Shown here: in pieces, positions 4,009-30,130 of the stretch | How the letters are laid out: each line of letters opens with the position of its first letter | How positions within the stretch are numbered: the stretch's first letter is position 1 | Source of the DNA: a virus | Reading direction: 5' to 3' (one strand) | Virus record (IMG/VR): IMGVR_UViG_3300042505_000227 | Coordinates: 1-31,402 of that record | DNA: 31,402 nucleotides | Notes under the pieces: generated by a model | Told to the model about the DNA's origin: nothing | Databases searched by the model: none | Seen by the model: the letters and a program-made list of their open reading frames with translations, nothing else | Translations under genes and position numbers: made by a program

Positions 4009-4378
4009 CGCACTTCGACACCAGCTTGAAAACTTCGGTCGTCACCGATATGCGAATCTTGATGACACCTTGAAAGATGAACTTTCCGTTCATTACAAAG
4101 CGCTTGGATTCGGTAAACTGAACAAAGCTTGCGCAACGTGTGTACGAATCGCAATGGACAAGCTGAACCAAGACAAGGACAAGATTCGTCCAGTTGTCCG
4201 AGAACAAAACAATGAACCGCACATGAAGGAAGAACCGCCGAAGCTTCACTTTGTCGGAACGAAACAAAAGACGTTCGGCGAACTTCGACGCGAAGCGATT
4301 GAACTTGGATTCAAAGCAACACGAACAACAACACGACAAGACATTGAACAATGGTTGACATCCACGAAACAGCTGTAA
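3995..4378 (+). CDS. Conserved phage protein with C-terminal SAP/Rho-N-like helices
   Basis: This 127-residue basic protein has two parts. The N-terminal region holds KLNKACATCVRIAMDKLN with a CxxC, similar to a recurrent Bacteroidota-phage hypothetical. A flexible linker rich in E, P and K follows. The C-terminal segment, FGELRREAIELGFKATR...DIEQWL (93-122), resembles the helix-extended-loop-helix of SAP, LEM or Rho-N domains, which bind nucleic acids. It overlaps its neighbours at both ends. I infer nucleic acid binding but cannot name a role. Confidence 0.65.
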   Translation: MNISNALRHQLENFGRHRYANLDDTLKDELSVHYKALGFGKLNKACATCVRIAMDKLNQDKDKIRPVVREQNNEPHMKEEPPKLHFVGTKQKTFGELRREAIELGFKATRTTTRQDIEQWLTSTKQL

Positions 4379-4833
4379 TTTATCCGGGCGTCACGCTTGG
4401 TCACAACGTCACAATCGGTGCGTTTTGCATAATCGGCGCACCAGCGGAAACAAAGAAACACGACGGTCAAAACGGATTCGGTGTTGTTATCGGAAACAAC
4501 GTCACGATTCATGGTCATGCAACAATTGACGCTGGATCGCAACGACCGACAATCATTGACGACGGCGCGTATATCATGAAGACCGTTCACATCGGTCACG
4601 ATTCAATCATTCACAAGGACGTCACGATTTCACCGCACGTGGTCATCGGTGGGTTCGTGGAAATACACGAACAAACAAACATCGGAATGAACGCAACGAT
4701 TCACCAGCGCGTCACGATACCTTCAAAATGTATGGTCGGAATGTCCGCGGTCATCACAAAGAAAACACCGCTTGAACCGAACACCGTTCTTGTCGGCAAT
4801 CCTGCACGAATAACACGAAACAACAACCGATGA
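4351..4833 (+). CDS. Hexapeptide-repeat (LpxA-like) acyltransferase
   Basis: The 160-residue protein is built almost entirely of left-handed beta-helix hexapeptides: IHETAVIYPGVTLGHNVTIG at 4-23, IGNNVTIHGHATIDAG in the middle, then VTISPHVVIGGFVEIHEQTNIGMNATIHQRVTI and a closing VLVGNPARI, which is the typical C-terminal cap of sugar O- or N-acyltransferases. Members move acetyl or longer acyl groups from CoA or ACP to a sugar. HGHATIDAG has histidines where the catalytic His usually lies. It overlaps the previous gene by 28 bases and is followed by a glycosyltransferase (ATGA overlap), so the two may act on one glycan. The length is near that of small acetyltransferases, shorter than LpxA. 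Confidence 0.85.
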   Translation: MVDIHETAVIYPGVTLGHNVTIGAFCIIGAPAETKKHDGQNGFGVVIGNNVTIHGHATIDAGSQRPTIIDDGAYIMKTVHIGHDSIIHKDVTISPHVVIGGFVEIHEQTNIGMNATIHQRVTIPSKCMVGMSAVITKKTPLEPNTVLVGNPARITRNNNR

Positions 4834-5459
4834 AAATAATCACCGTCACCGCAATGCATGGACGACATGACACCGTTCAGGAATGTATTAATCGAATGCC
4901 GTTCATCGACAAGGTATTCATTTACTCAAACGACGAAGACGGCGCGTTCCTTGAAGGTCAAGACATTTTCGCAATGGCGAAATATCAAAACAATCCGCTT
5001 TCCTACAAATGGAACATGGCGATTCGAACGCTGGAACAAATCGATTTCGATGCGGTTATTCTTTTGGGTTCGGACGACTACATTGACGAAGCTTTCATGA
5101 ACTACGTTGAACGAACAATTCCTGACTTCGACATGATTGGATTCAAAGACATTTACTTTCAAAACGAAGGCGCACTTCATTATTGGTCAGGTTACAACAA
5201 CAACCGACGCGGTGAACCGTGTGGTGCTGGCAAAGTGTATTCACGAAAATTCCTTGAATGCTTGAAATGGAATCTTTTCGACGTGGCAAGGGATCGCGGT
5301 CTTGACAAGATTTCATGGGAACGTGTCAAACAAGCGAAAGGAAAAGTTCACATAACTTCGCTCAAACAAAACGGTCTTTTGTTGGTTGACATCAAAGACG
5401 GGAAAGGAATGACACCTTTCAATAAATTTAAGGGACTGGAACGAATTCCGAACAAGTAA
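4830..5459 (+). CDS. Glycosyltransferase-like protein (family 2-type fold)
   Basis: This 209-residue product begins with KIITVTAMHGRHDTVQECI, matching the first Rossmann strand and helix of GT-A enzymes. It next has NNPLSYKWNMAIR (54-66), like the N-G-x-A-x-N motif, and VILLGSDDYIDEAFM at 76-90, where SDD stands at the DxD nucleotide-sugar/metal site. The C-terminal half is shorter than in processive GT2 enzymes and lacks membrane helices, suggesting a soluble, one-step transferase. Paired with the hexapeptide acyltransferase, it could modify virion proteins, phage DNA or host surface sugars. The gene ends inside the 19-base late motif at 5449-5467. Confidence 0.8.
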   Translation: MKIITVTAMHGRHDTVQECINRMPFIDKVFIYSNDEDGAFLEGQDIFAMAKYQNNPLSYKWNMAIRTLEQIDFDAVILLGSDDYIDEAFMNYVERTIPDFDMIGFKDIYFQNEGALHYWSGYNNNRRGEPCGAGKVYSRKFLECLKWNLFDVARDRGLDKISWERVKQAKGKVHITSLKQNGLLLVDIKDGKGMTPFNKFKGLERIPNK

Positions 5460-5486: not shown

Positions 5487-5894
5487 ATGGCAAACAAACA
5501 CCGCAACATCGACAAAGATGAATTGCTTCAAATGGCTTATAATTATTGCGACTATTGTATCGCTTCGACAAAGGAAATCGCGACGAATTCAGGCGTGAAG
5601 CAAGTGAAGGAACGTCACATTCCGACCGTGTCTTATTTCTTGTTACACTACCTTCGACGTGAACACTTTGACTTTTATAAACGGGACAACTGGTATCATG
5701 CGATGAAGGACGAAACACATCCATTGTCCGACACTATAAAAGCAATTGACAACGACTTCAATGCTTTGGCGCGTGACATTGTTGCCAACGAAGGCAAGGG
5801 AATTTTCTACGCAAAGAACAAACTGGGAATGCACGACCGACAACAAGTCGAAACGCGCACCGTGGACAAGTTCGATTTCGATGTCAACGATTAA
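5487..5894 (+). CDS. terS: Terminase small subunit
   Basis: The 135-residue protein precedes and overlaps the large terminase gene. The N-terminal helices contain a possible helix-turn-helix (STKEIATNSGVKQVKERHI). The C-terminal part, GIFYAKNKLGMHDRQQVETR...DKFDF, matches small terminases of many phages, where an F-x-LKNK-G-xxD-xQ-xE stretch precedes the C-terminus. It binds the packaging site and regulates the large subunit. The start is the first ATG after late motif copy 1. Confidence 0.85.
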   Translation: MANKHRNIDKDELLQMAYNYCDYCIASTKEIATNSGVKQVKERHIPTVSYFLLHYLRREHFDFYKRDNWYHAMKDETHPLSDTIKAIDNDFNALARDIVANEGKGIFYAKNKLGMHDRQQVETRTVDKFDFDVND

Positions 5895-7083
5895 AGGTTA
5901 TCGACCGCACAAACACCAGCTTGAAATTCATCAAGCAATCAACCAAGGTAACGAAAAGTATTTCGCTTTGAACATCGGACGTCAGTTCGGAAAAACAATG
6001 CTTGGAATCAATCAACTTCTTTGGTGGGCAATTAATGACCGCGGTTGCACGATTGCATGGGTGACACCAGTTTACAAGCAAGGAAAGAAGGTGTTCGCTG
6101 AACTTGAACGCGCCGTGGCGAAGTCAGGTTTCTTTGAGTTCAACAAATCCGATTTGAGAATCACCGGGTTCGGTTCATCGATTGAATTCTTTTCAGGTGA
6201 ACGACCAGACAACATTCGTGGAAATACATTCGATTACATGGTCGTTGATGAATTCGCGTTCACACGTCCTGAACTATGGGACGAAGTATTGTCGGCGACG
6301 GTCTTGGTCAAAGGAAAGAAGGTCATCTTTATTTCAACACCGAAGGGAAAGAATCATTTTCACCGGGTGTGTCTTCAACAAAATTACGACGACCGATACC
6401 GTTACTTTCATTTCACCAGCTTCGACAATCCTATGATTGATCCAAAGGAACTTGAAGAACGAAAGCGGTCATTGCCTGACCATGTGTTTCGACAAGAATA
6501 CCTTGCGGAATTCCTTGACAACGCTGGTGGCTTGTTCAAGGGTGTGTCGTCGTGTATCGGTCAAGGTGAACGCACATCGCGAATGTATGGTGGTCTTGAC
6601 ATCGGTCGTGCTGACGACTACACGGTGTTGACTATCCTGAACGAACATGGTCACATGGTTCACGTTGAACGCTGGCGACACGATGACTGGTCACGAATCA
6701 TTGACAAGGTGGCGAACTTGATTCGTCAGTTCAACGCAATCACCACGGTCGAAGTAAACAATCAAGGTGACGTCTTTTACGAAATGCTTCACAACACATT
6801 GCGGAACAAGGTCGTTCCATTCGTGACGACATCCAAGTCAAAACCGATATTGATTGAAGACCTTGCGCTTTCGTTCGAACAACAAGCGATTCGTGTCAAC
6901 GATGTGAAATGGTTGCTTGACGAACTTGAATCTTTTACTTATATTTACAATCCGAAAACAAGGAACGTTCAATATAGCGCACCGACTGGACTACACGACG
7001 ACGGCGTGATGTCACTGGCGCTTGCGTGGAATTCCATGAAGAACAACAAGTCAAAAGGGAAATACAACACATTGAGAATATGA
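5881..7083 (+). CDS. terL: Terminase large subunit
   Basis: The start is placed at 5881 (MSTIKGYRPHKHQ), overlapping the small subunit by 14 bases; the open frame runs further upstream but that part is antiparallel noise. The 400-residue protein shows the ATPase domain, with Walker A GRQFGKT at 33-39, Walker B YMVVDE at 119-124 and coupling motif STPKG at about 152-156. It also shows the RNase H-like nuclease, with GLDIGRADDYT at about 238-248, VEVNNQGD near 290 and HDDGVMSLALA near 371. It drives ATP-dependent DNA packaging and cuts concatemers. All catalytic motifs are intact. It is compact but complete. Confidence 0.97.
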   Translation: MSTIKGYRPHKHQLEIHQAINQGNEKYFALNIGRQFGKTMLGINQLLWWAINDRGCTIAWVTPVYKQGKKVFAELERAVAKSGFFEFNKSDLRITGFGSSIEFFSGERPDNIRGNTFDYMVVDEFAFTRPELWDEVLSATVLVKGKKVIFISTPKGKNHFHRVCLQQNYDDRYRYFHFTSFDNPMIDPKELEERKRSLPDHVFRQEYLAEFLDNAGGLFKGVSSCIGQGERTSRMYGGLDIGRADDYTVLTILNEHGHMVHVERWRHDDWSRIIDKVANLIRQFNAITTVEVNNQGDVFYEMLHNTLRNKVVPFVTTSKSKPILIEDLALSFEQQAIRVNDVKWLLDELESFTYIYNPKTRNVQYSAPTGLHDDGVMSLALAWNSMKNNKSKGKYNTLRI

Positions 7084-7784
7084 AAATTAAACTACCAGCG
7101 TCCATTCACGAATGCAAACCTGACCAGCTTGTCAAATGGTTGATGCTTGCTGAAGTCATCAAGGAAAAGCAAAACGATGAATTCTTTCAAATGCTTGACT
7201 TTCAATGTCAATTGATTTCAATCTTTTCAGGAATGAAGGTGAACAAGGTCAAGCAACTTGCAATCGAAGACGTTCAAAGATTGTCTGGTCACTTGACGCG
7301 AATGATTGCTAACTACAATTACGCTGAACCGCTTGGTGAAGTAACGGTGAACGGTCAACGATACGTCTTTGAAAAAGATTTCCGTTTGATTTCAACCGGG
7401 CAAATCATTGACTTGAAATTGATTGAAGACCTTGTCAGTGATCCGGTGCAAGCGCTTGCGATTTGCTATGTCGAAGAAGGAATGGAGTATTGTCAAGAAG
7501 ATGACCGTGGTCGTGTGTTGAATCCTAACGACAAACGTTACAAGGCTTTCAAGGAACAATTCGACGGCGCTGAATTCATGAACTTCTTCGGTTTTTTTTT
7601 GCGCGAATCAGTGAAGCGGAACGACGCTATATTAGCAATCCAGACGATACGGACGATGACGAATCAACGGAACGCGATGGCGAATCTAAAGACACCGAAT
7701 GGTTCACATGGACAAGAATCCTTCAGCGACTTGGACAAGAACTTGGAACGAGCATTGACGCAATCACTAAACAACCTTACGTGA
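7080..7784 (+). CDS. Tail assembly chaperone-like protein, zero-frame form
   Basis: The start at 7080 overlaps the terminase stop (ATGA); the frame's upstream ATG at 7026 is discarded. The 234-residue zero-frame product has a helical N-terminus with short strands (GEVTVNGQRYVFEKDFRL) and resembles the first component of G/GT-type tail chaperones. A T9 tract at 7592-7600 lies in codons 171-174. After it, the zero frame uses codons unlike the rest of the genome (ATA, CGG, CTA), whereas the -1 frame is open for 87 codons with typical codons. The zero-frame tail of 61 residues may thus be the minor or spurious end. Confidence 0.75.
   Translation: MKIKLPASIHECKPDQLVKWLMLAEVIKEKQNDEFFQMLDFQCQLISIFSGMKVNKVKQLAIEDVQRLSGHLTRMIANYNYAEPLGEVTVNGQRYVFEKDFRLISTGQIIDLKLIEDLVSDPVQALAICYVEEGMEYCQEDDRGRVLNPNDKRYKAFKEQFDGAEFMNFFGFFLRESVKRNDAILAIQTIRTMTNQRNAMANLKTPNGSHGQESFSDLDKNLERALTQSLNNLT
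7592..7601 (+). promoter_or_regulatory. Probable -1 ribosomal frameshift site (T9 then G)
   Basis: The zero frame reads GGT TTT TTT TTG, so the ribosome meets a perfect U UUU UUU slippery heptamer and, one codon later, U UUU UUG. A -1 slip opens a frame that stays open to 7861, while the +1 frame stops within five codons. The -1 frame has no suitable start codon of its own near the tract, so frameshifting (or an uncorrected homopolymer length error) is needed to express it. Confidence 0.72.
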
Positions 7785-7861
7785 AAACTTTGTTCTGGAT
7801 GAACTATCTTAAATTGAAAGACGAACAAGATTACATACTAAGTAAACAACGCAATGGCTGA
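7598..7861 (+). CDS. Frameshift extension of the tail assembly chaperone
   Basis: This -1-frame segment encodes 87 residues that would be fused to the first 173 of the gene at 7080, giving a product of about 260 residues. It begins ARISEAERRYISNP, then an acidic linker rich in D and E. It ends in a well-formed helical domain containing DTEWFTWTRILQRLGQELG, KQPYVKTLFWMNYLK and KDEQDYILSK. Codon choice (GAA, GAC, CGA, CTT) is that of the genome. Its stop overlaps the ATG of the next gene at 7854 by eight bases, as real neighbours do here. This matches the G/GT arrangement of siphovirus tail chaperones. Confidence 0.72.
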   Translation, partial: FARISEAERRYISNPDDTDDDESTERDGESKDTEWFTWTRILQRLGQELGTSIDAITKQPYVKTLFWMNYLKLKDEQDYILSKQRNG

Positions 7862-8375
7862 TTTTGATTTCCTTGAAGATTTCGGGGTGTCGGTTGCCGA
7901 AGCTGAACAACCACAAAGCGTTTACGAAAAGTTTATCCTAAACGTCGGGAACAAAGTCACCGCCGACCTTCGTGAATACATTCAAAACAACGCGATGAAC
8001 ACGGGCGCCCTTGCGCAATCGGTTGTCTACTTTCCGACGGGTGCGTTGTCGTTTGAAATTCAAGCTGACGATTATTATAAGTTCGTTGACGAAGGTGTGA
8101 ACGGAATCGCGGTCAATCATGCGAGTCAGTATTCGTTCCAATATCCGGGGGTGTCTTATAACATGGCGAAGGCAATTCAGGAATGGAAAGGAATGGACAT
8201 GTCACACGCCTACGCAATCGCCACGAACATCAAACAACGTGGACTTCGACCGAAGAATATCACCGACAATGTCATCAACGACGACGTTCTTGAAATGATT
8301 GCGAATGACTTGACGGAAATAACTGGATTGACGTTTGAAATAAAATTTGAAAAGGCAACACAAACATGGCAGTAA
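7854..8375 (+). CDS. Tail completion / neck-type protein
   Basis: The 173-residue protein resembles gp10-like neck or tail-completion proteins. An acidic N-terminus leads to helices (SVYEKFILNVGNKVTADLREYI), the conserved stretch YYKFVDEGVNGIAVNHASQY with the D-E-G-V-x-G turn, and a C-terminal MAKAIQEW...AYAIATNIKQRGLRP pattern. Such proteins join the tail to the connector or cap the tail tube. It lies between the chaperone and the tail/baseplate genes. The exact assignment (neck versus tail terminator) cannot be settled by eye. Confidence 0.65.
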   Translation: MADFDFLEDFGVSVAEAEQPQSVYEKFILNVGNKVTADLREYIQNNAMNTGALAQSVVYFPTGALSFEIQADDYYKFVDEGVNGIAVNHASQYSFQYPGVSYNMAKAIQEWKGMDMSHAYAIATNIKQRGLRPKNITDNVINDDVLEMIANDLTEITGLTFEIKFEKATQTWQ

Positions 8376-12524: not shown

Positions 12525-12720
12525 TTTGACAACAATCGAAAACGGATTCGTAATGCGCGAACTTGAATACCATTTCGACGGCGAAGCGGAAATTCTTGAC
12601 GAAACACAAGCGCACGTTCCGACGGATCGAGGCGTGATATTTATGGACACGACCATGACAATCGACAACGAATCATTCAACAACATCAACGACTTTTTAA
12701 CAACGCTTTATGGCAAATAA
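12517..12720 (+). CDS. Small protein between fibre and tape measure
   Basis: I choose the ATG at 12517, which overlaps the fibre stop by eight bases, giving 67 residues (LNLTTIENGFVMRELEYHFDG...). An upstream ATG at 12481 would overlap the fibre gene by 44 bases. The product is acidic, beta-strand rich at first and helical at the end. It overlaps the tape measure start by 11 bases. It may be a small tail component or chaperone; no family is recognised. Confidence 0.7.
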   Translation: MLNLTTIENGFVMRELEYHFDGEAEILDETQAHVPTDRGVIFMDTTMTIDNESFNNINDFLTTLYGK

Positions 12721-15418
12721 AGAAGCGGTATTCACCGTCAAGGTCAACACTGGAAATTCAGTTCAAGACCTTCAAAACGCGGACAAGGCGGTCAATCAAC
12801 TTAACAAAGATTTGCAGACCACACAAACGACCGCGAAGGATTCCAGCGGAACGGACGCATTGACGCAACGGCTTGCTGACCTTGACGCGAAGCTTGAAGC
12901 TGGTGGGCTTTCCATGCGTGAAATGACGCAAACGATGAAAGAATATCAAACGATTGCTATTCAAGCTGGCGTAACTTCACCAATTGGTGCGCAAGCGTTA
13001 CAAAATGCGGCTGGATTGAAGGACGAAATCGGTGATTTGAAAGCGCAAACAACGGCGTTGTCGTCGGACTTCAAAGGTCTTGACACCGCAATGTCAGGAA
13101 TCGAAGTCGGTGCAGCTGCATTTCAAGGCGTTCAATCGGCAATGGCTTTGGCTGGTGTTGAAAATGAAAAGTTGATGCAAACAATGGTCAAGCTTCAAGC
13201 GGTTCAAGGCTTGGTGAATTCAGTCACGACCATTGCGAACAAATTGAATTCCGATTCAATTCTTGGAATCCAGATTCGAACGGCTTGGGAAAAATTAAAG
13301 AATTCATCGTTCGTTCAAGGCACGGTTGCAACCACCGCACAAACAACCGCAACGGTTGCACAAACAACCGCGACCGTGGCAAGTTCAACGGCAACGGCAA
13401 CGGCGGTGACTGGCATGAAATTGTTTCGGCTTGCGTTGATTTCAACGGGAATCGGTGCGCTTGTGATTGGGCTTGGTTTGTTGATTGCCAACTTCGACAA
13501 GGTGTCCGCTTTTGTTTTGAAGGCGCGTGAAGAATTTGAAAAACTTGGTCCGGGTGTGAAGATTGCAATCGGAATCGCGGTGCTTGCGTTCGCGCCATTA
13601 ATCGGGGTTATTTACGGCGTTGTCAAAGCGCTTGAATACTTCGGCGTTGTGGACGATGTTCAAACGGCGAAGGCAAAGAAGAACGCGCAATCACACACCG
13701 AAGCGGTCATCAAAGCAAGTGACAAGCGAGCGAAGGCAATCAAGAAAGAACAAGATGCAACCGACGCAAAGTACACGCATGAAATCAACATGGCGAAAGC
13801 GTCTGGAAAGGACACATACGAAATGGAATTAATGAAGGCGAAAGCGCACTTGTCAAGCGGTCGTGTTTATTTAGAACTTCAAAAGGCAAAGATGAAAGCA
13901 ATTCAAGCGGAAATGGAATTGTTGCTTGAAAATGAAGACGTAGATTCGGATCGTTACAAAGCGTTGAAAAAACGTCTTGAATCCGCGAAGAAAATTATTT
14001 CCGATTCTTACAAAGACAATGTCGCAACGAAGAACGCAATTGAAGTAATGGTTGCGGAACACAACCACGAAGTTCAAAAGAAGGCGGACGACAACGCAAA
14101 GAAGGCGTTCGACGTGGCGCAAAAGAATCGTGAAAAAATTCAAGAGGCTGAAGCGAAAGCGAACGAGAAAACCAAAGAAGATTTAAGAAAACACAATCTT
14201 CAAATGATTGCTGAAGAAGAAGCGCGTGACGAAGCAATTCGGCGTTCGAAAATGTCCGCGCTTGATTTGGAATTGTCCGACATTCAAGATGAGTATTTCC
14301 AGAAAAAAGAACAAGCAAAACTTTTGGGTGAAGAAGGTGCGCAACTGGTCGCACAATTGGAAGCTGAAGAAGCAACGAAAAAAGCTGAAGTCCGAAAGAA
14401 ATACGCGGACGCACAATTGAAGATTGACGCGGAAAATGAAACGAAGCGACGTGACCGACAAAAAATGCTGAACGACATTCTTTTGGACGACCAAGAAAAG
14501 GCGTTGTTCGATTTGAACCAGACAACCGAAGACGCGAAAAAAGAATTGCTTCGTCGATTGAATTCCACGGACGAAAACGAACGAATCACGAAAGAACAAC
14601 ACGACCTTGCGTTGATTGCTTTGGAACAAAAGAAAATTGACAAGATTGAAGAAATAAACAAAACAGCTTCGGACAAAGCGAAAGAAGAAGCAATCAAAGA
14701 ACGTGAAGAAGCGTTGAAAGCGGTGACGGAATTCCTTGAAGACTCGCAAATGGTGCTTGACCATGTGAAGACCGTTGACGCGTTAATGGACGAAATCGAC
14801 CAAGCACGACTGAACAAGATTGAAGGACGACGCGACGAAGACCTTGCAAACCTTGACGCAAAGATGCAAGCTGAATTGAGCGCTGAAGGATTGACCGCGC
14901 AACAAAAAACGGACATTGAAGAAAAGTTCGCACAACAAAAATACGCCGTTCAACTTCAAGCATATAACGCCGAAGAAAAAATAAAGAAGGCGCAATTCAA
15001 CCGCGACAAAGCAATCAAACTTGGTCAGGTTGCAATCGACACGGCGTCCGCAATCGTGAAGGCAATCGCACAATTCGGGCCACCACCGTCACCAATGGGA
15101 ATCGCTGGAATCGCGTCGGCTGGTGTCATCGGTGTGACGCAAGCGCTCGCAATCGCGAATCAACAATACAAAGCTGGTTCAGCACCAAGCGCACCTAATT
15201 TTTCAACCGCTGGTGGTGGTGGTGGTGGTGGTGGAATGGCTGGCGCTGGCGCTTCGTCCTTCACGGCTTCGAACACACAAACGTCAACCGCTGGATTGCT
15301 TGGTGAACAAGGTGCAACGACAAGTAACATTCCTTCGTCACAAGTATTCGTTCTTGAAAGCGACATTTCAGCGACGCAAAACAAAGTTAAACTTCAGGAA
15401 TCCAAAACAAGTTTTTAA
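12710..15418 (+). CDS. Tape measure protein
   Basis: At 902 residues this is the longest gene. It has long coiled-coil stretches rich in A, K, E and Q (about 310-760), two hydrophobic segments (about 241-262 and 285-306), and a glycine-rich C-terminus (GGGGGGGG at about 835-842). Tape measure proteins fill the tail tube, set its length and help DNA cross the host membrane; at about 0.15 nm per residue this predicts a tail of roughly 135 nm. A tandem 21-base repeat at 13337-13378 encodes AQTTATV twice. It lies downstream of the baseplate genes, not directly after the tail chaperone. Confidence 0.92.
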   Translation: MANKEAVFTVKVNTGNSVQDLQNADKAVNQLNKDLQTTQTTAKDSSGTDALTQRLADLDAKLEAGGLSMREMTQTMKEYQTIAIQAGVTSPIGAQALQNAAGLKDEIGDLKAQTTALSSDFKGLDTAMSGIEVGAAAFQGVQSAMALAGVENEKLMQTMVKLQAVQGLVNSVTTIANKLNSDSILGIQIRTAWEKLKNSSFVQGTVATTAQTTATVAQTTATVASSTATATAVTGMKLFRLALISTGIGALVIGLGLLIANFDKVSAFVLKAREEFEKLGPGVKIAIGIAVLAFAPLIGVIYGVVKALEYFGVVDDVQTAKAKKNAQSHTEAVIKASDKRAKAIKKEQDATDAKYTHEINMAKASGKDTYEMELMKAKAHLSSGRVYLELQKAKMKAIQAEMELLLENEDVDSDRYKALKKRLESAKKIISDSYKDNVATKNAIEVMVAEHNHEVQKKADDNAKKAFDVAQKNREKIQEAEAKANEKTKEDLRKHNLQMIAEEEARDEAIRRSKMSALDLELSDIQDEYFQKKEQAKLLGEEGAQLVAQLEAEEATKKAEVRKKYADAQLKIDAENETKRRDRQKMLNDILLDDQEKALFDLNQTTEDAKKELLRRLNSTDENERITKEQHDLALIALEQKKIDKIEEINKTASDKAKEEAIKEREEALKAVTEFLEDSQMVLDHVKTVDALMDEIDQARLNKIEGRRDEDLANLDAKMQAELSAEGLTAQQKTDIEEKFAQQKYAVQLQAYNAEEKIKKAQFNRDKAIKLGQVAIDTASAIVKAIAQFGPPPSPMGIAGIASAGVIGVTQALAIANQQYKAGSAPSAPNFSTAGGGGGGGGMAGAGASSFTASNTQTSTAGLLGEQGATTSNIPSSQVFVLESDISATQNKVKLQESKTSF
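13337..13378 (+). repeat. 21-base tandem repeat inside the tape measure gene
   Basis: GCACAAACAACCGC occurs at 13337-13350 and again at 13358-13371, 21 bases apart, each followed by a similar G/C-T-G stretch. It encodes two copies of AQTTATV. In a tape measure gene, in-frame gain or loss of units would change tail length in small steps. Confidence 0.7.
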
Positions 15419-16049
15419 GCCATGAACGACCGCGCGTTGTTAGGAATGAATCGGACGTGGAAAAGCAACCATAAGTTCGAAGCAATTCTTCAGCTTTTGG
15501 AATGTTGTCTTTTGCAAGCTTGACGTTGTCACCTTTGCGAATCAATTCAGGTGAATTCATGTTAAGGTAAATTGATTTGATGAAATGGTTGTATCGTTGC
15601 CATTCGATTAGTTCAAAGATTTCAAGCAACTTGTCCGAATCCATTAACACTGGCGAATGTGTTTCGAAATTCCACAACGGGCGGTCATAATACTTTAAAA
15701 ATTCAATCGTGTTGAACATGGCTTCACGATAGTGCGAAGGGTGTCGTGGATTCAATTCGAATTCACCAACATGAATGGGAATGTCGGCGCGAAGTTTTGG
15801 CGTGATATAAAAGTCGTCGTTCATGTAGATGAATGAACCACCACGTTCACGGGCAAACGTCAACATTTTATTCGTCACGTCCGAACCACGAATGTTGTTC
15901 AATTGTGGACATGGAATGTTGTCAATGGTTGCGACCTTGTCACCAACGGTAACGATGTTGGCTTCAGGGAACGACATCCGAATGAATCGGATTGATTGTT
16001 GAATGTCGAAGTCATCGCGACTTCGTCGGTAGGGGAATACAAATGTCAT
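15387..16049 (-). CDS. Stealth-like glycosyltransferase, the only minus-strand gene
   Basis: The 220-residue product starts FVFPYRRSRDDFDIQQSIRF and contains GGSFIYMNDDFYI at 71-83. The NDDF motif at 77-80 after a hydrophobic strand is like the Stealth family of sugar-phosphate transferases and related GT-A enzymes. Basic and aromatic residues dominate the C-terminal half. It is convergent with, and overlaps by 32 bases, the tape measure gene, and diverges from the protease gene 26 bases away. On its strand, TAATTTTG lies four bases before the ATG, a perfect -7 box, so it has its own promoter. This independent unit is moron-like and may modify host surface or virion glycans. Confidence 0.72.
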   Translation of the reverse strand: MTFVFPYRRSRDDFDIQQSIRFIRMSFPEANIVTVGDKVATIDNIPCPQLNNIRGSDVTNKMLTFARERGGSFIYMNDDFYITPKLRADIPIHVGEFELNPRHPSHYREAMFNTIEFLKYYDRPLWNFETHSPVLMDSDKLLEIFELIEWQRYNHFIKSIYLNMNSPELIRKGDNVKLAKDNIPKAEELLRTYGCFSTSDSFLTTRGRSWLKNLFWIPEV

Positions 16050-18782: not shown

Positions 18783-19319
18783 ATGTCTTGTAATATGACA
18801 ACCGGGTACAACGACAGAACGTGTACCAACGGGAAAGGCGGAATCAAATCGGTGTTGTTGTTCCCTTTGGGTGCGGTTTCAGGTGCGATTGTTTCGCCAT
18901 TAACAAATGAATTGACTTCGATCACCGTAACTGGTGAAACATTCCTTTACAAATTAAAGTCAAATTTATCAAGTTACACCGCACCAGTTCGCGTTGACAA
19001 AAACAACGGAACACTTTGGTATGAACATGAACTTTCAATGATCCTTGCAAGCGATTCAAAAGAACTTCGCGCGGAAATTCACTTACTTGCACAAAACGAA
19101 TGTGTTTGTTTGGTTGAAAACGCTGACGGAACAATTGTTGCGCTTGGTCTTGGTGAAGGTCTTCAGGTTGCCGACGCGAATGAATACAGTTCAGGCGTGT
19201 TGAAAAGCGACCGAAAAGGTCACGTGATTGTAATGCGCGGAATGGAAAACGATGAAGTTCCTGACGTTGCTACAAACGTTTATACTTCATTGTTAGCACA
19301 ACAATCACCTTCAATCTAA
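18783..19319 (+). CDS. Probable major tail tube protein
   Basis: The 178-residue product begins SCNMTTGYNDRTCTNGKGGI, with cysteines and a GG turn, and continues as alternating strands: TVTGETFLYKLKSNLSSYTA, GTLWYEHELSMILASDSKEL, CVCLVENADGTIVALGLGEG, ending SDRKGHVIVMRGME. This single beta domain and its size suit a tail tube or head decoration protein. Its position right after the capsid gene and before a strong terminator indicates an abundant virion protein. I prefer tail tube because no other candidate exists in the tail module. Confidence 0.6.
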   Translation: MSCNMTTGYNDRTCTNGKGGIKSVLLFPLGAVSGAIVSPLTNELTSITVTGETFLYKLKSNLSSYTAPVRVDKNNGTLWYEHELSMILASDSKELRAEIHLLAQNECVCLVENADGTIVALGLGEGLQVADANEYSSGVLKSDRKGHVIVMRGMENDEVPDVATNVYTSLLAQQSPSI

Positions 19320-25557: not shown

Positions 25558-25590
25558 TTGTGCATAATTAAAAAAAAATGTGTCAAAAGT

Positions 25591-27436: not shown

Positions 27437-27613
27437 GCGTTACAGCGCGACAAAGTTACAATTCTCTTATATACCCTGCCAGAAAAAAAAGCGGTATTTT
27501 TTAAGGGGGGGGGGTAAAAACTTTTGTAATTTTGTCGCGCTATGGGTGAAACGTAGTGTTGGCGTGGTTTATAGGCGTTACAAAACGCGTTACAAAAAAA
27601 TAATTTTGTCGCG
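27437..27613. other. Candidate replication origin with iterons
   Basis: This lies in the one gene-free stretch longer than 300 bases. GCGTTACA occurs three times, at 27437-27444, 27575-27582 and 27587-27594, with a fourth GTTACA at 27455-27460. TTTGTCGCG occurs at 27531-27539 and 27605-27613, and GCGCGACAAA at 27445-27454 is its inverted copy. A-runs and the G10 tract at 27505-27514 lie between. TAATTTTG boxes at 27527-27534 and 27601-27608 overlap the TTTGTCGCG copies. The gene before encodes a DnaA-like DNA-binding protein and the gene after the primase-helicase, so origin function is likely. Confidence 0.6.
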
Positions 27614-27742: not shown

Positions 27743-30130
27743 ATGATTCCAAATATATCGGTCTTCAGGTCGTTATTCAATGCAAAAGAAACACCGTTCA
27801 CGATGAACGTGGTCGAAGTTTACAATCGAATCAAGAACGGTTATCCTGAACTTGTTTCGAAAATCAACCGACTTCGTGAAATGGACGAATCAACCGAAGC
27901 TTATCGGTCATTAAAGAATTCATTGCTTGCGATTATGTTCAACGGAACATTCAACCAGCGAACCGACAACGGACTTGTTGAACATTCCGGGTTGTGTATC
28001 TTGGACTTCGACGACTATCCTGACCAAGAAACAATGAATCAAGACAAGCAACGCTTCAAATCATTGCCGTTCGTGTTCATGGTCTTCACTTCACCTTCGA
28101 ATAAAGGACTGAAGGTTGTGGTCAAGATACCACAATCAACCAAAGAAGAACACAAGCGAAGATTCAAAGCGCTTGAACTTGAATTGAATTCCGATTACTT
28201 CGACACGTCCAGTCAAAACGTTTCAAGGGTGTGTTTCGAAAGCTACGATCCCGACGCTTATTTGAACGAATTTTGTGACGAATTCACAACGATTGATGAA
28301 GAACGTGGACACATTTTCCTTGAACGTCCACCGGTATGTCGATTAGTGGACGAATCAAAAATAATTGAACGAATCATGAAGTTCGATTTCGGTGGTGAAT
28401 TCAATTCAGGGAATCGGAACAACTATATTTTCAAACTTTCCGCTTGTCTTTGTGAATACGGAATAACGCGCGACGTTGCCGAATATCACCTTGAACAATT
28501 CGTGTCAAGTGATTTCACAAAAGCGGAACTGGTGAACACAATCAAAAGCGCTTATCGAACCGCTGACTTCAAATCGAAGTATTTCGAAGACAACGAAAAG
28601 CTAACAAAAGCGAAGATAAAAATTCGTCAAGGAATTGCGACCAAGGACATAACCGAAGCGCTTGGACTTGACCAAGAACAAATCGAAGAAATCAAATCGG
28701 ACGTTGAAAACAACCAAGACGTTTTCTGGACAATCACACAATTGAAAACGGGTGAAAAGATTTCAATCGAACCTAACAATTACAGCGCTTTTCTTTCAAA
28801 GCATGGATTCGGGAAATACTATCCAGAAAGGGCGTTGTCACCGACATTTGTTGTGGTCAATGAAAACAAGGTTCGTTTGTCTTCGGTGGAACAAATCAAA
28901 GATTTCGTGTTAAAATATCTCGAATCGCGATGTGAAATATCGGTGTGGAACTATTGTTCCAGATCAACTTATTTGTTCAGCGAAAATTTCTTGAACATGA
29001 TTGATTCGATTGATGTCAAAATGCTTCAGGACAACAAGACCGAATCTTTCATTCCATTCAAGAACGGCGTTGTCACGATCACGAAGAAGGATGTCACCTT
29101 GAAAAGTTACATTGACGTAAACGGTTACATTTGGGAAAATCAAATCTTGAACCGGGACTTCGTTCAGCTGGACAACCACAAGAACGATTTCCAAGATTTC
29201 ATCTATAAGGTGTCGAACCAAGACAAGACACGAAGCGAAGCGCTTGAAACAACGCTTGGTTATTTAATGCATACTTACAAAGACAAGACCGAACAAAAAG
29301 CAATCATTTTCAACGACCAAGAAATCGACGACAACGCGAATGGCGGTTCAGGAAAGTCCCTAATGTTAACGGCAATAAACTATTTTAGGAATCTTGTCAC
29401 CGTGGACGGAAAGCAATTCAATTCAATGAAGAATGACTTCGTTTATCAACGGGTGAACCTTGACACGCAAATTCTCGCGTTCGACGACGTGAAAAAGAAC
29501 TTCGACTTTGAGCAATTGTTCAGCGTGGTATCTCAAGGAATCACCGTGAACCGCAAAAACAAGGACGAAATATACATTCCTTTCGAACGTTCACCGAAAA
29601 TTGTAATTACAACGAATTATGTGATTGCTGGCGCTGGATCCAGTCACGACCGAAGACGTCACGAACTTGAATTTTTTCAGTATTTCAACGCGCAACATTC
29701 GCCATTGAAAGAATACGGTCGTTTGTTGTTTGATTCTTGGTCACACGATGACTGGTCAAAATTTGACAACTACATGATTGCTAACGTTCAAAAATACCTG
29801 AACGAAGGCTTGACCGCAACGACATCAATCAACGCCGACACGAAGCGTTTCATTCAATCGACTTGCAAGGACTTCTTTGAATTCGTGCGTGAAGGCAATC
29901 TTGAACTTGACATTTATCACTACAATCAATCGAAGCTTCAGGAATTCCAAACCGAAACGAATTCATTCAAGGACCTTTCAACGCAAAAGTTTAAAAAGTG
30001 GGTGAAGGAATACGCGAATCACAAAGGGTACAAATACACCGAAGGACACAACCATTCCGGTCGTTATTTTATCTTGACTGAAGGTTCACCAGCGAATGAA
30101 TTCACACCGAAAAACGATTGTCCATTTTAA
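27743..30130 (+). CDS. Primase-helicase replication protein (VirE_N/BT4734 primase plus SF3 helicase)
   Basis: This 795-residue protein has three parts. Residues about 1-190 are the BT4734/VirE N-terminal primase-like domain, with CILDFDDY at about 85-92 and SPSNKGLKVVVKI near 115-127. Residues about 200-280 form a helical PriCT-like region (RNNYIFKLSACLCEYGI). The C-terminal half is an SF3 helicase, with Walker A NGGSGKS near 533, Walker B ILAFDDV near 577 and motif C KIVITTNYV near 619, followed by SHDRRRHELEF. It would prime and unwind at the origin; the phage has no DNA polymerase gene and so relies on the host's. The start codon lies within a half-conserved palindrome. Confidence 0.92.
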   Translation: MIPNISVFRSLFNAKETPFTMNVVEVYNRIKNGYPELVSKINRLREMDESTEAYRSLKNSLLAIMFNGTFNQRTDNGLVEHSGLCILDFDDYPDQETMNQDKQRFKSLPFVFMVFTSPSNKGLKVVVKIPQSTKEEHKRRFKALELELNSDYFDTSSQNVSRVCFESYDPDAYLNEFCDEFTTIDEERGHIFLERPPVCRLVDESKIIERIMKFDFGGEFNSGNRNNYIFKLSACLCEYGITRDVAEYHLEQFVSSDFTKAELVNTIKSAYRTADFKSKYFEDNEKLTKAKIKIRQGIATKDITEALGLDQEQIEEIKSDVENNQDVFWTITQLKTGEKISIEPNNYSAFLSKHGFGKYYPERALSPTFVVVNENKVRLSSVEQIKDFVLKYLESRCEISVWNYCSRSTYLFSENFLNMIDSIDVKMLQDNKTESFIPFKNGVVTITKKDVTLKSYIDVNGYIWENQILNRDFVQLDNHKNDFQDFIYKVSNQDKTRSEALETTLGYLMHTYKDKTEQKAIIFNDQEIDDNANGGSGKSLMLTAINYFRNLVTVDGKQFNSMKNDFVYQRVNLDTQILAFDDVKKNFDFEQLFSVVSQGITVNRKNKDEIYIPFERSPKIVITTNYVIAGAGSSHDRRRHELEFFQYFNAQHSPLKEYGRLLFDSWSHDDWSKFDNYMIANVQKYLNEGLTATTSINADTKRFIQSTCKDFFEFVREGNLELDIYHYNQSKLQEFQTETNSFKDLSTQKFKKWVKEYANHKGYKYTEGHNHSGRYFILTEGSPANEFTPKNDCPF

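Follow-up and report, generated by a model that had tools for sequence, protein, structure and literature searches.

A run of nine or more T's kept where two reading frames meet in a late gene of two related phage families: a possible tail-chaperone pair made through slippage by RNA polymerase

In the viral record IMGVR_UViG_3300042505_000227, analysed over a stretch of 31,402 bases that we refer to as the window, a gene that directly follows the gene for the large terminase subunit (TerL) contains a run of nine T's (7592-7600), read in its own frame as GGT TTT TTT TTG, behind which a second long reading frame lies open in the -1 register. The locus raises the question of whether two proteins with a common N-terminus are made from one gene here and, if they are, whether the change of frame is made by the ribosome, as in the tail chaperones of phage lambda, or by RNA polymerase.

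The junction in the window

The features that bear on this question are the following, in coordinates of the window.

7080..7784, + strand: unshifted (G-like) product, ATG start, 234 aa, zero-frame stop at 7782-7784
7080..~7591, + strand: shared N-terminal (G) domain, 54-100% identity within the window's family, with hhalign and BFVD fold matches
7592..7600, + strand: T9 frame-change site, GGT TTT TTT TTG, without variation across the window's family (177 distinct junctions) and T9 or T10 in 124 distinct junctions of a second family
7601..7784, + strand: zero-frame extension, 60 codons and stop, the first 20-30 codons dual-coded, with the motif FFLxxSxxRxxAILxIQxxR
7601..7861, + strand: T domain in the -1 frame, with a conserved helix, an acidic linker and a helical domain with terminal QPYVKTLFWMNYLKLKDEQ, stop at 7859-7861
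7854..8375, + strand: next gene, a homologue of P12024S_42, overlapping the T-domain stop by 8 bases

The -1 frame contains no stop between those at 7571-7573 and 7859-7861, and 89 of its codons extend from the run to 7858, for a predicted fusion of 260 aa (171 + 89), while the +1 frame closes within a few codons (...FFCANQ*) and the ATG of the next gene stands at 7854. The original prediction, made from the letters of the window, had pointed to the in-frame T9, the open -1 frame with its acidic linker and helical domain, the eight-base overlap with the next gene and the immediate closure of the +1 frame, and all of these are borne out, with 89 codons counted from the run where 87 had been given. 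Its remark that the zero-frame codons past the tract are atypical was misleading, as it hints at non-coding sequence and yet the zero frame proves to be conserved there. Runs of at least nine T's or A's are depleted in the window, with two observed as compared to 11.1 +/- 4.4 expected from shuffles, the other one being intergenic (at 25570). The longest homopolymer of the window is a run of ten G's (27505-27514) upstream of a primase-like gene at 27743.

Conservation of the run and of both frames in two families

With the N-terminal domain and the T domain each used as a query against IMG/VR, we collected 369 loci that contain both, all of which carry T9 at the junction and 368 of which show the same -1 relation. 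The exception, L343, is ruled out as a true departure, having a deletion in its G domain, upstream of the junction, and the same applies to L060, which carries an in-contig deletion (at 1798-1937 of that locus) that takes out most of the T domain and leaves both frames open behind T9. Among the 177 distinct junctions of this family the length of the run and its phase, beginning at codon position 3, are identical, L343 excepted. Across the first 123 distinct junctions the run starts within a GGT, GCT or AGT codon, always one that ends in T, and both Phe codons are invariably TTT, whereas neighbouring Gly and Phe codons vary freely; G, A and C all occur immediately 3' of the run. A start codon for the second frame, sought in 119 relatives, is absent from the first 40 codons of T in 118 and, as an ATG further upstream in the open -1 stretch, from all 119.

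A second family came to light through protein structure prediction. When the zero-frame product as modelled by AlphaFold2 was compared with BFVD, 32 viral proteins of predicted structure matched at E <= 0.001, including P12024S_38 of the cultured Nonlabens phage P12024S, whose gene also stands directly after TerL, contains T9 and is followed by a T-like domain in the -1 frame. That locus (L378, JQ823122, 23136-23830) is currently annotated as two hypothetical proteins, P12024S_38 and a separate 55-aa ORF, P12024S_39, and corresponds to PHROG_32199 and PHROG_38404, which are listed as unrelated; P12024S_38 and _39 most likely represent one T9 frameshift gene read in two frames. Relatives of P12024S_38 in IMG/VR (25-99% identity) provide 124 distinct junctions, with T9 in 122 and T10 in 2, and the long -1 frame is found wherever the contig extends far enough. 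Both T10 cases arose by base substitution, one on the 5' and one on the 3' side, and leave the frame unchanged. Unlike in the window's family, the run begins at codon position 2. Profile comparison by hhalign indicates that the G domains of the two families are homologous (probability 97.4, E 1.5e-11) and that the T domains probably are (a weaker match, probability 29, E 5.9e-4, colinear over 44 residues). A fold match to Flavobacterium phage 6H was set aside as weak (TM 0.28) and as lying in a gene that lacks a T run, and a search for cultured Bacteroidota phages with the window's TerL produced matches of about 30% identity or less, in phages of other hosts. Runs of A8 and A9 are far commoner in other genes of the second family (L380-L523) than in the window's family. 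The run of at least nine T's is common to hundreds of environmental phages and to the cultured Nonlabens phages P12024S and P12024L.

Past the run, the zero frame as well as the -1 frame shows signs of selection in both families. Wherever the two are open together, four-fold sites of the -1 frame change about 2-5 times less than those of G. In the window's family the observed-to-expected ratios over the first 30 codons past the run, where the effect is strongest, are 0.42, 0.61 and 0.41. Set positions of the zero frame retain R, A, I/M, L, I, Q and R while the -1 residues there vary, even among sequences whose synonymous sites are near saturation, and the zero-frame stop has the same position in 107 of 118 members, by way of Val/Ile codons (GTG, GTA, ATA) that are otherwise not the rule. 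The second family bears the same signature, with ratios of 0.32 and 0.30 over the first 20 codons. Since RNAalifold shows no conserved structure, the constraint is best read as coding, and the possibility that the zero frame past the run is mere read-out is ruled out by the four-fold constraint, the zero-frame motif and the conserved stop. A simulation of synonymous codons, in which the zero frame stayed open for a mean of 32 codons as compared to the 60.5 observed (median p 0.1), is suggestive only. In the AlphaFold2 model of the zero-frame product (mean pLDDT 76) a single helix, residues 163-203, crosses the T tract, with low confidence past residue 180. By these comparative measures some 20-30 codons are dual-coded in both families, and in the window's family the predicted unshifted protein has a conserved C-terminus of its own, as does the predicted fusion.

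Two explanations that would deprive the junction of its meaning can be weighed against this conservation. Metagenomic contigs are prone to error in homopolymers, and the annotation of P12024S_39 as a distinct ORF might suggest separate internal initiation; T9 at every junction, the same in a cultured phage as in hundreds of contigs, together with the lack of a start for T, excludes sequencing or assembly error, a broken gene and internal initiation, and dual coding speaks against them as well, such that we regard this group of explanations as scarcely credible. Very improbable, too, is phase variation, in which slippage by DNA polymerase would alter the length of the run in the genome and toggle the fusion. 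Homopolymer runs are indeed mutable, but an on/off switch would leave both states behind it, and among several hundred assembled genomes there is neither a T8 nor a T10 made by insertion; moreover, conservation extends to both frames at once. We are almost certain that the frame change is programmed, and a programmed -1 change that fuses the N-terminal domain to the second domain, as first proposed from the window, is strongly supported by comparison with the relatives, in hundreds of which the T tract and the paired frames recur and 119 of which were also searched for the separate start that would have spoken against it. The two products with a common N-terminus are predictions from a frame relation kept in two families. 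That relation and its conservation, the dual coding, the lack of a separate start for T and the keeping of run length across a change of phase all emerge from sequence comparison.

Gene neighbourhood and probable function

The genes around the junction that bear on its function are the following.

5890..7083, + strand: terminase large subunit (TerL), directly upstream (PHROG_2, E 1.9e-46; Terminase_6N, E 1e-16)
12710..15418, + strand: tape-measure-like protein of 902 aa, sixth gene downstream, recognized by its length and its coiled-coil and hydrophobic composition
18783..19319, + strand: possible major tail protein, a homologue of P12024S_03 (PHROG_19091), tentatively assigned by position and a candidate partner of the T domain

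Where a locus includes enough sequence to tell, TerL precedes the frame-change gene in 117 of 117 cases in the window's family and in 94 of 112 in the second. The gene and the tape-measure-like gene belong to one gene run, a late structural operon, the latter being several genes downstream as the original prediction had it; its product has no family match in Pfam or PHROGs and corresponds by position, with no match in sequence, to the product of the long gene P12024S_49. The downstream genes look tail-like and have a similar order in P12024S, and head genes (protease, capsid, portal) common to the window and P12024S form a separate block. Just 5' of the terminase genes (4351-5459) are hexapeptide-repeat acyltransferase-like (Pfam Hexapep, E 6.9e-23) and glycosyltransferase-like genes, and between the tape-measure-like gene and the protease a minus-strand ORF of 220 aa (15387-16049) runs opposite to the late genes.

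Because of its place after TerL in a late operon, the tape-measure-like gene downstream, the architecture of a shared domain with a -1 extension, and the acidic linker and helical T domain, the gene is best read as working like the G/GT tail-chaperone pair (PMC5009743). As in lambda, a late structural region would encode a shared domain and a -1 T domain in two products with a common N-terminus. The likeness does not extend to detectable homology: no convincing match to a known chaperone was obtained in Pfam, PHROGs, NCBIfam or PDB sequences, hhalign found none to lambda G or lambda T, and Foldseek gave no usable match for the G model in the PDB or for the T model in BFVD. Matches to PDB repeat proteins (profile A5) were set aside, as they consist of short repeats with no stretch significant by itself. 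The position differs as well, since lambda G-T lies between the tail-tube gene V and the tape-measure gene H, whereas here the gene follows TerL and the possible tail-tube gene is far downstream. The annotated T of lambda overlaps the end of G by fewer than 20 bases, in contrast to the 60 conserved codons through which the zero frame continues in the window, and the T9 homopolymer at the frame-change site is unlike the lambda site. The tail chaperones of P2-like (E / E+E') and HK97-like phages also undergo a -1 shift; no sequence match to them was found for the window's gene, and neither a long conserved zero-frame tail nor a kept T9 length is described for them in the literature that we surveyed.

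The earlier identification as a tail chaperone stands as a fair deduction from architecture and context, with homology and fold searches adding nothing to it. The frame change could be real and the pair could instead serve in assembly of the head or neck, or in packaging, beside the terminase, an idea compatible with slippage by either agent and consistent with the absence of homology to known chaperones and with the location immediately after TerL, several genes away from the tape-measure-like gene. We consider it unlikely, as G/GT pairs are marked out by just this combination of a two-product -1 gene, an acidic linker and a helical extension within the late operon of a siphovirus, and the tail-like downstream genes, in an order similar to that of P12024S, point the same way.

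Slippage by RNA polymerase or by the ribosome

The proposed scheme is one in which two proteins that share a 171-aa N-terminus would come from one gene. The majority of transcripts would carry nine U's and yield the 234-aa zero-frame G-like protein with its own conserved C-terminal helix; on T9, RNA polymerase would slip and produce some transcripts with one more U, or with a number giving the same frame, from which ordinary translation would make the 260-aa GT-like fusion, the acidic linker and helical T domain replacing the zero-frame tail. By analogy with lambda-type pairs, in which G binds the tape measure, T binds the tail-tube protein and neither enters the virion, G would coat the tape-measure protein and the rarer GT would recruit tail-tube subunits. 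Here we infer the slipping agent, the product ratio and the chaperone role alike.

The run is at least nine T's long (T9 or T10) in 301 distinct junctions, which are related by descent and hence represent fewer than 301 independent events, and it begins at codon position 3 in one homologous family and 2 in the other. Such lengths lie in the n>8 range given for T runs that undergo programmed transcriptional realignment (PMC3711429). Run length rather than codon phase is what has been kept, which hints at slippage by RNA polymerase. RNAalifold found no conserved downstream structure or pairs in either family (not every -1 site needs one), and neither family shows extra constraint just upstream of the site, where classic -1 stimulators or a Shine-Dalgarno-like element would lie. 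Among 1130 other genes of these phages there are no runs of T9 or more, and avoidance of T7 runs holds for each of the three phases, the in-frame one no more than the others, with 18 in-frame U_UUU_UUU heptamers tolerated.

A slippery heptamer of the X_XXY_YYZ type, U_UUU_UUU, is in register at all junctions, although by itself it decides nothing, because any T9 run includes one in frame. A ribosomal -1 shift at this heptamer (or at U_UUU_UUR), as in lambda G/GT and P2 E/E+E', would be the slip at a lambda-type slippery site that the original prediction envisaged, and it is a possibility that we take seriously without favouring it. It is the accepted mechanism for lambda-type tail chaperones (PMC5009743), and a frequency of 6-7% has been measured for an HK97-like cluster (PMC3711429). 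Each T beyond the heptamer can be explained by the amino acids of one frame or the other, a point that counts against the polymerase and fits a ribosomal slip as well. In P2 the E/E+E' site is itself T-rich (T_TTT_TTG). A ribosomal slip leaves unexplained, however, that the run is never 7 or 8, and it must also accommodate the absence of RNA structure and upstream constraint in both families and the presence of in-frame U_UUU_UUU in other genes. Because length is kept at nine or more while the phase differs, in the n>8 range, with neither RNA structure nor upstream constraint and with T7 avoided in every phase, we lean slightly towards transcriptional slippage by RNA polymerase on T9 as the source of the pair; the equation with lambda in the original prediction is made doubtful by a homopolymer of at least nine in two codon phases. 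On the fuller proposition, that both families, one of them including cultured phages of Nonlabens (Bacteroidota), make a tail-chaperone pair by programmed polymerase slippage at T9 or longer, with both C-termini dual-coded and having a function, rather than by the lambda-type ribosomal frameshift, we are evenly divided.

The nearest parallels are Thermus dnaX (A9), Shigella mxiE/spa13 (T/A runs) and IS elements, in which a homopolymer of about nine near the junction likewise gives products of two lengths (PMC3711429, PMC5009743); these are cellular genes or IS elements, whereas the window's is a phage gene. Our search of the literature found no report of programmed transcriptional realignment in a phage tail gene, and tail chaperones and transcriptional slippage appeared together only in reviews of a general kind and in prediction tools. 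Candidate tail chaperones that are now listed as hypothetical proteins may be recognized by a simple marker, a T run of nine or more near the end of a post-TerL gene with a -1 ORF, and P12024S is a cultured phage that would allow a direct test. Textbooks present the G/GT frameshift as an example of ribosomal recoding, and if the reading preferred here is true, what selection keeps would be the ratio of the two proteins and not the route to it, with that ratio being set in these phages by RNA polymerase.
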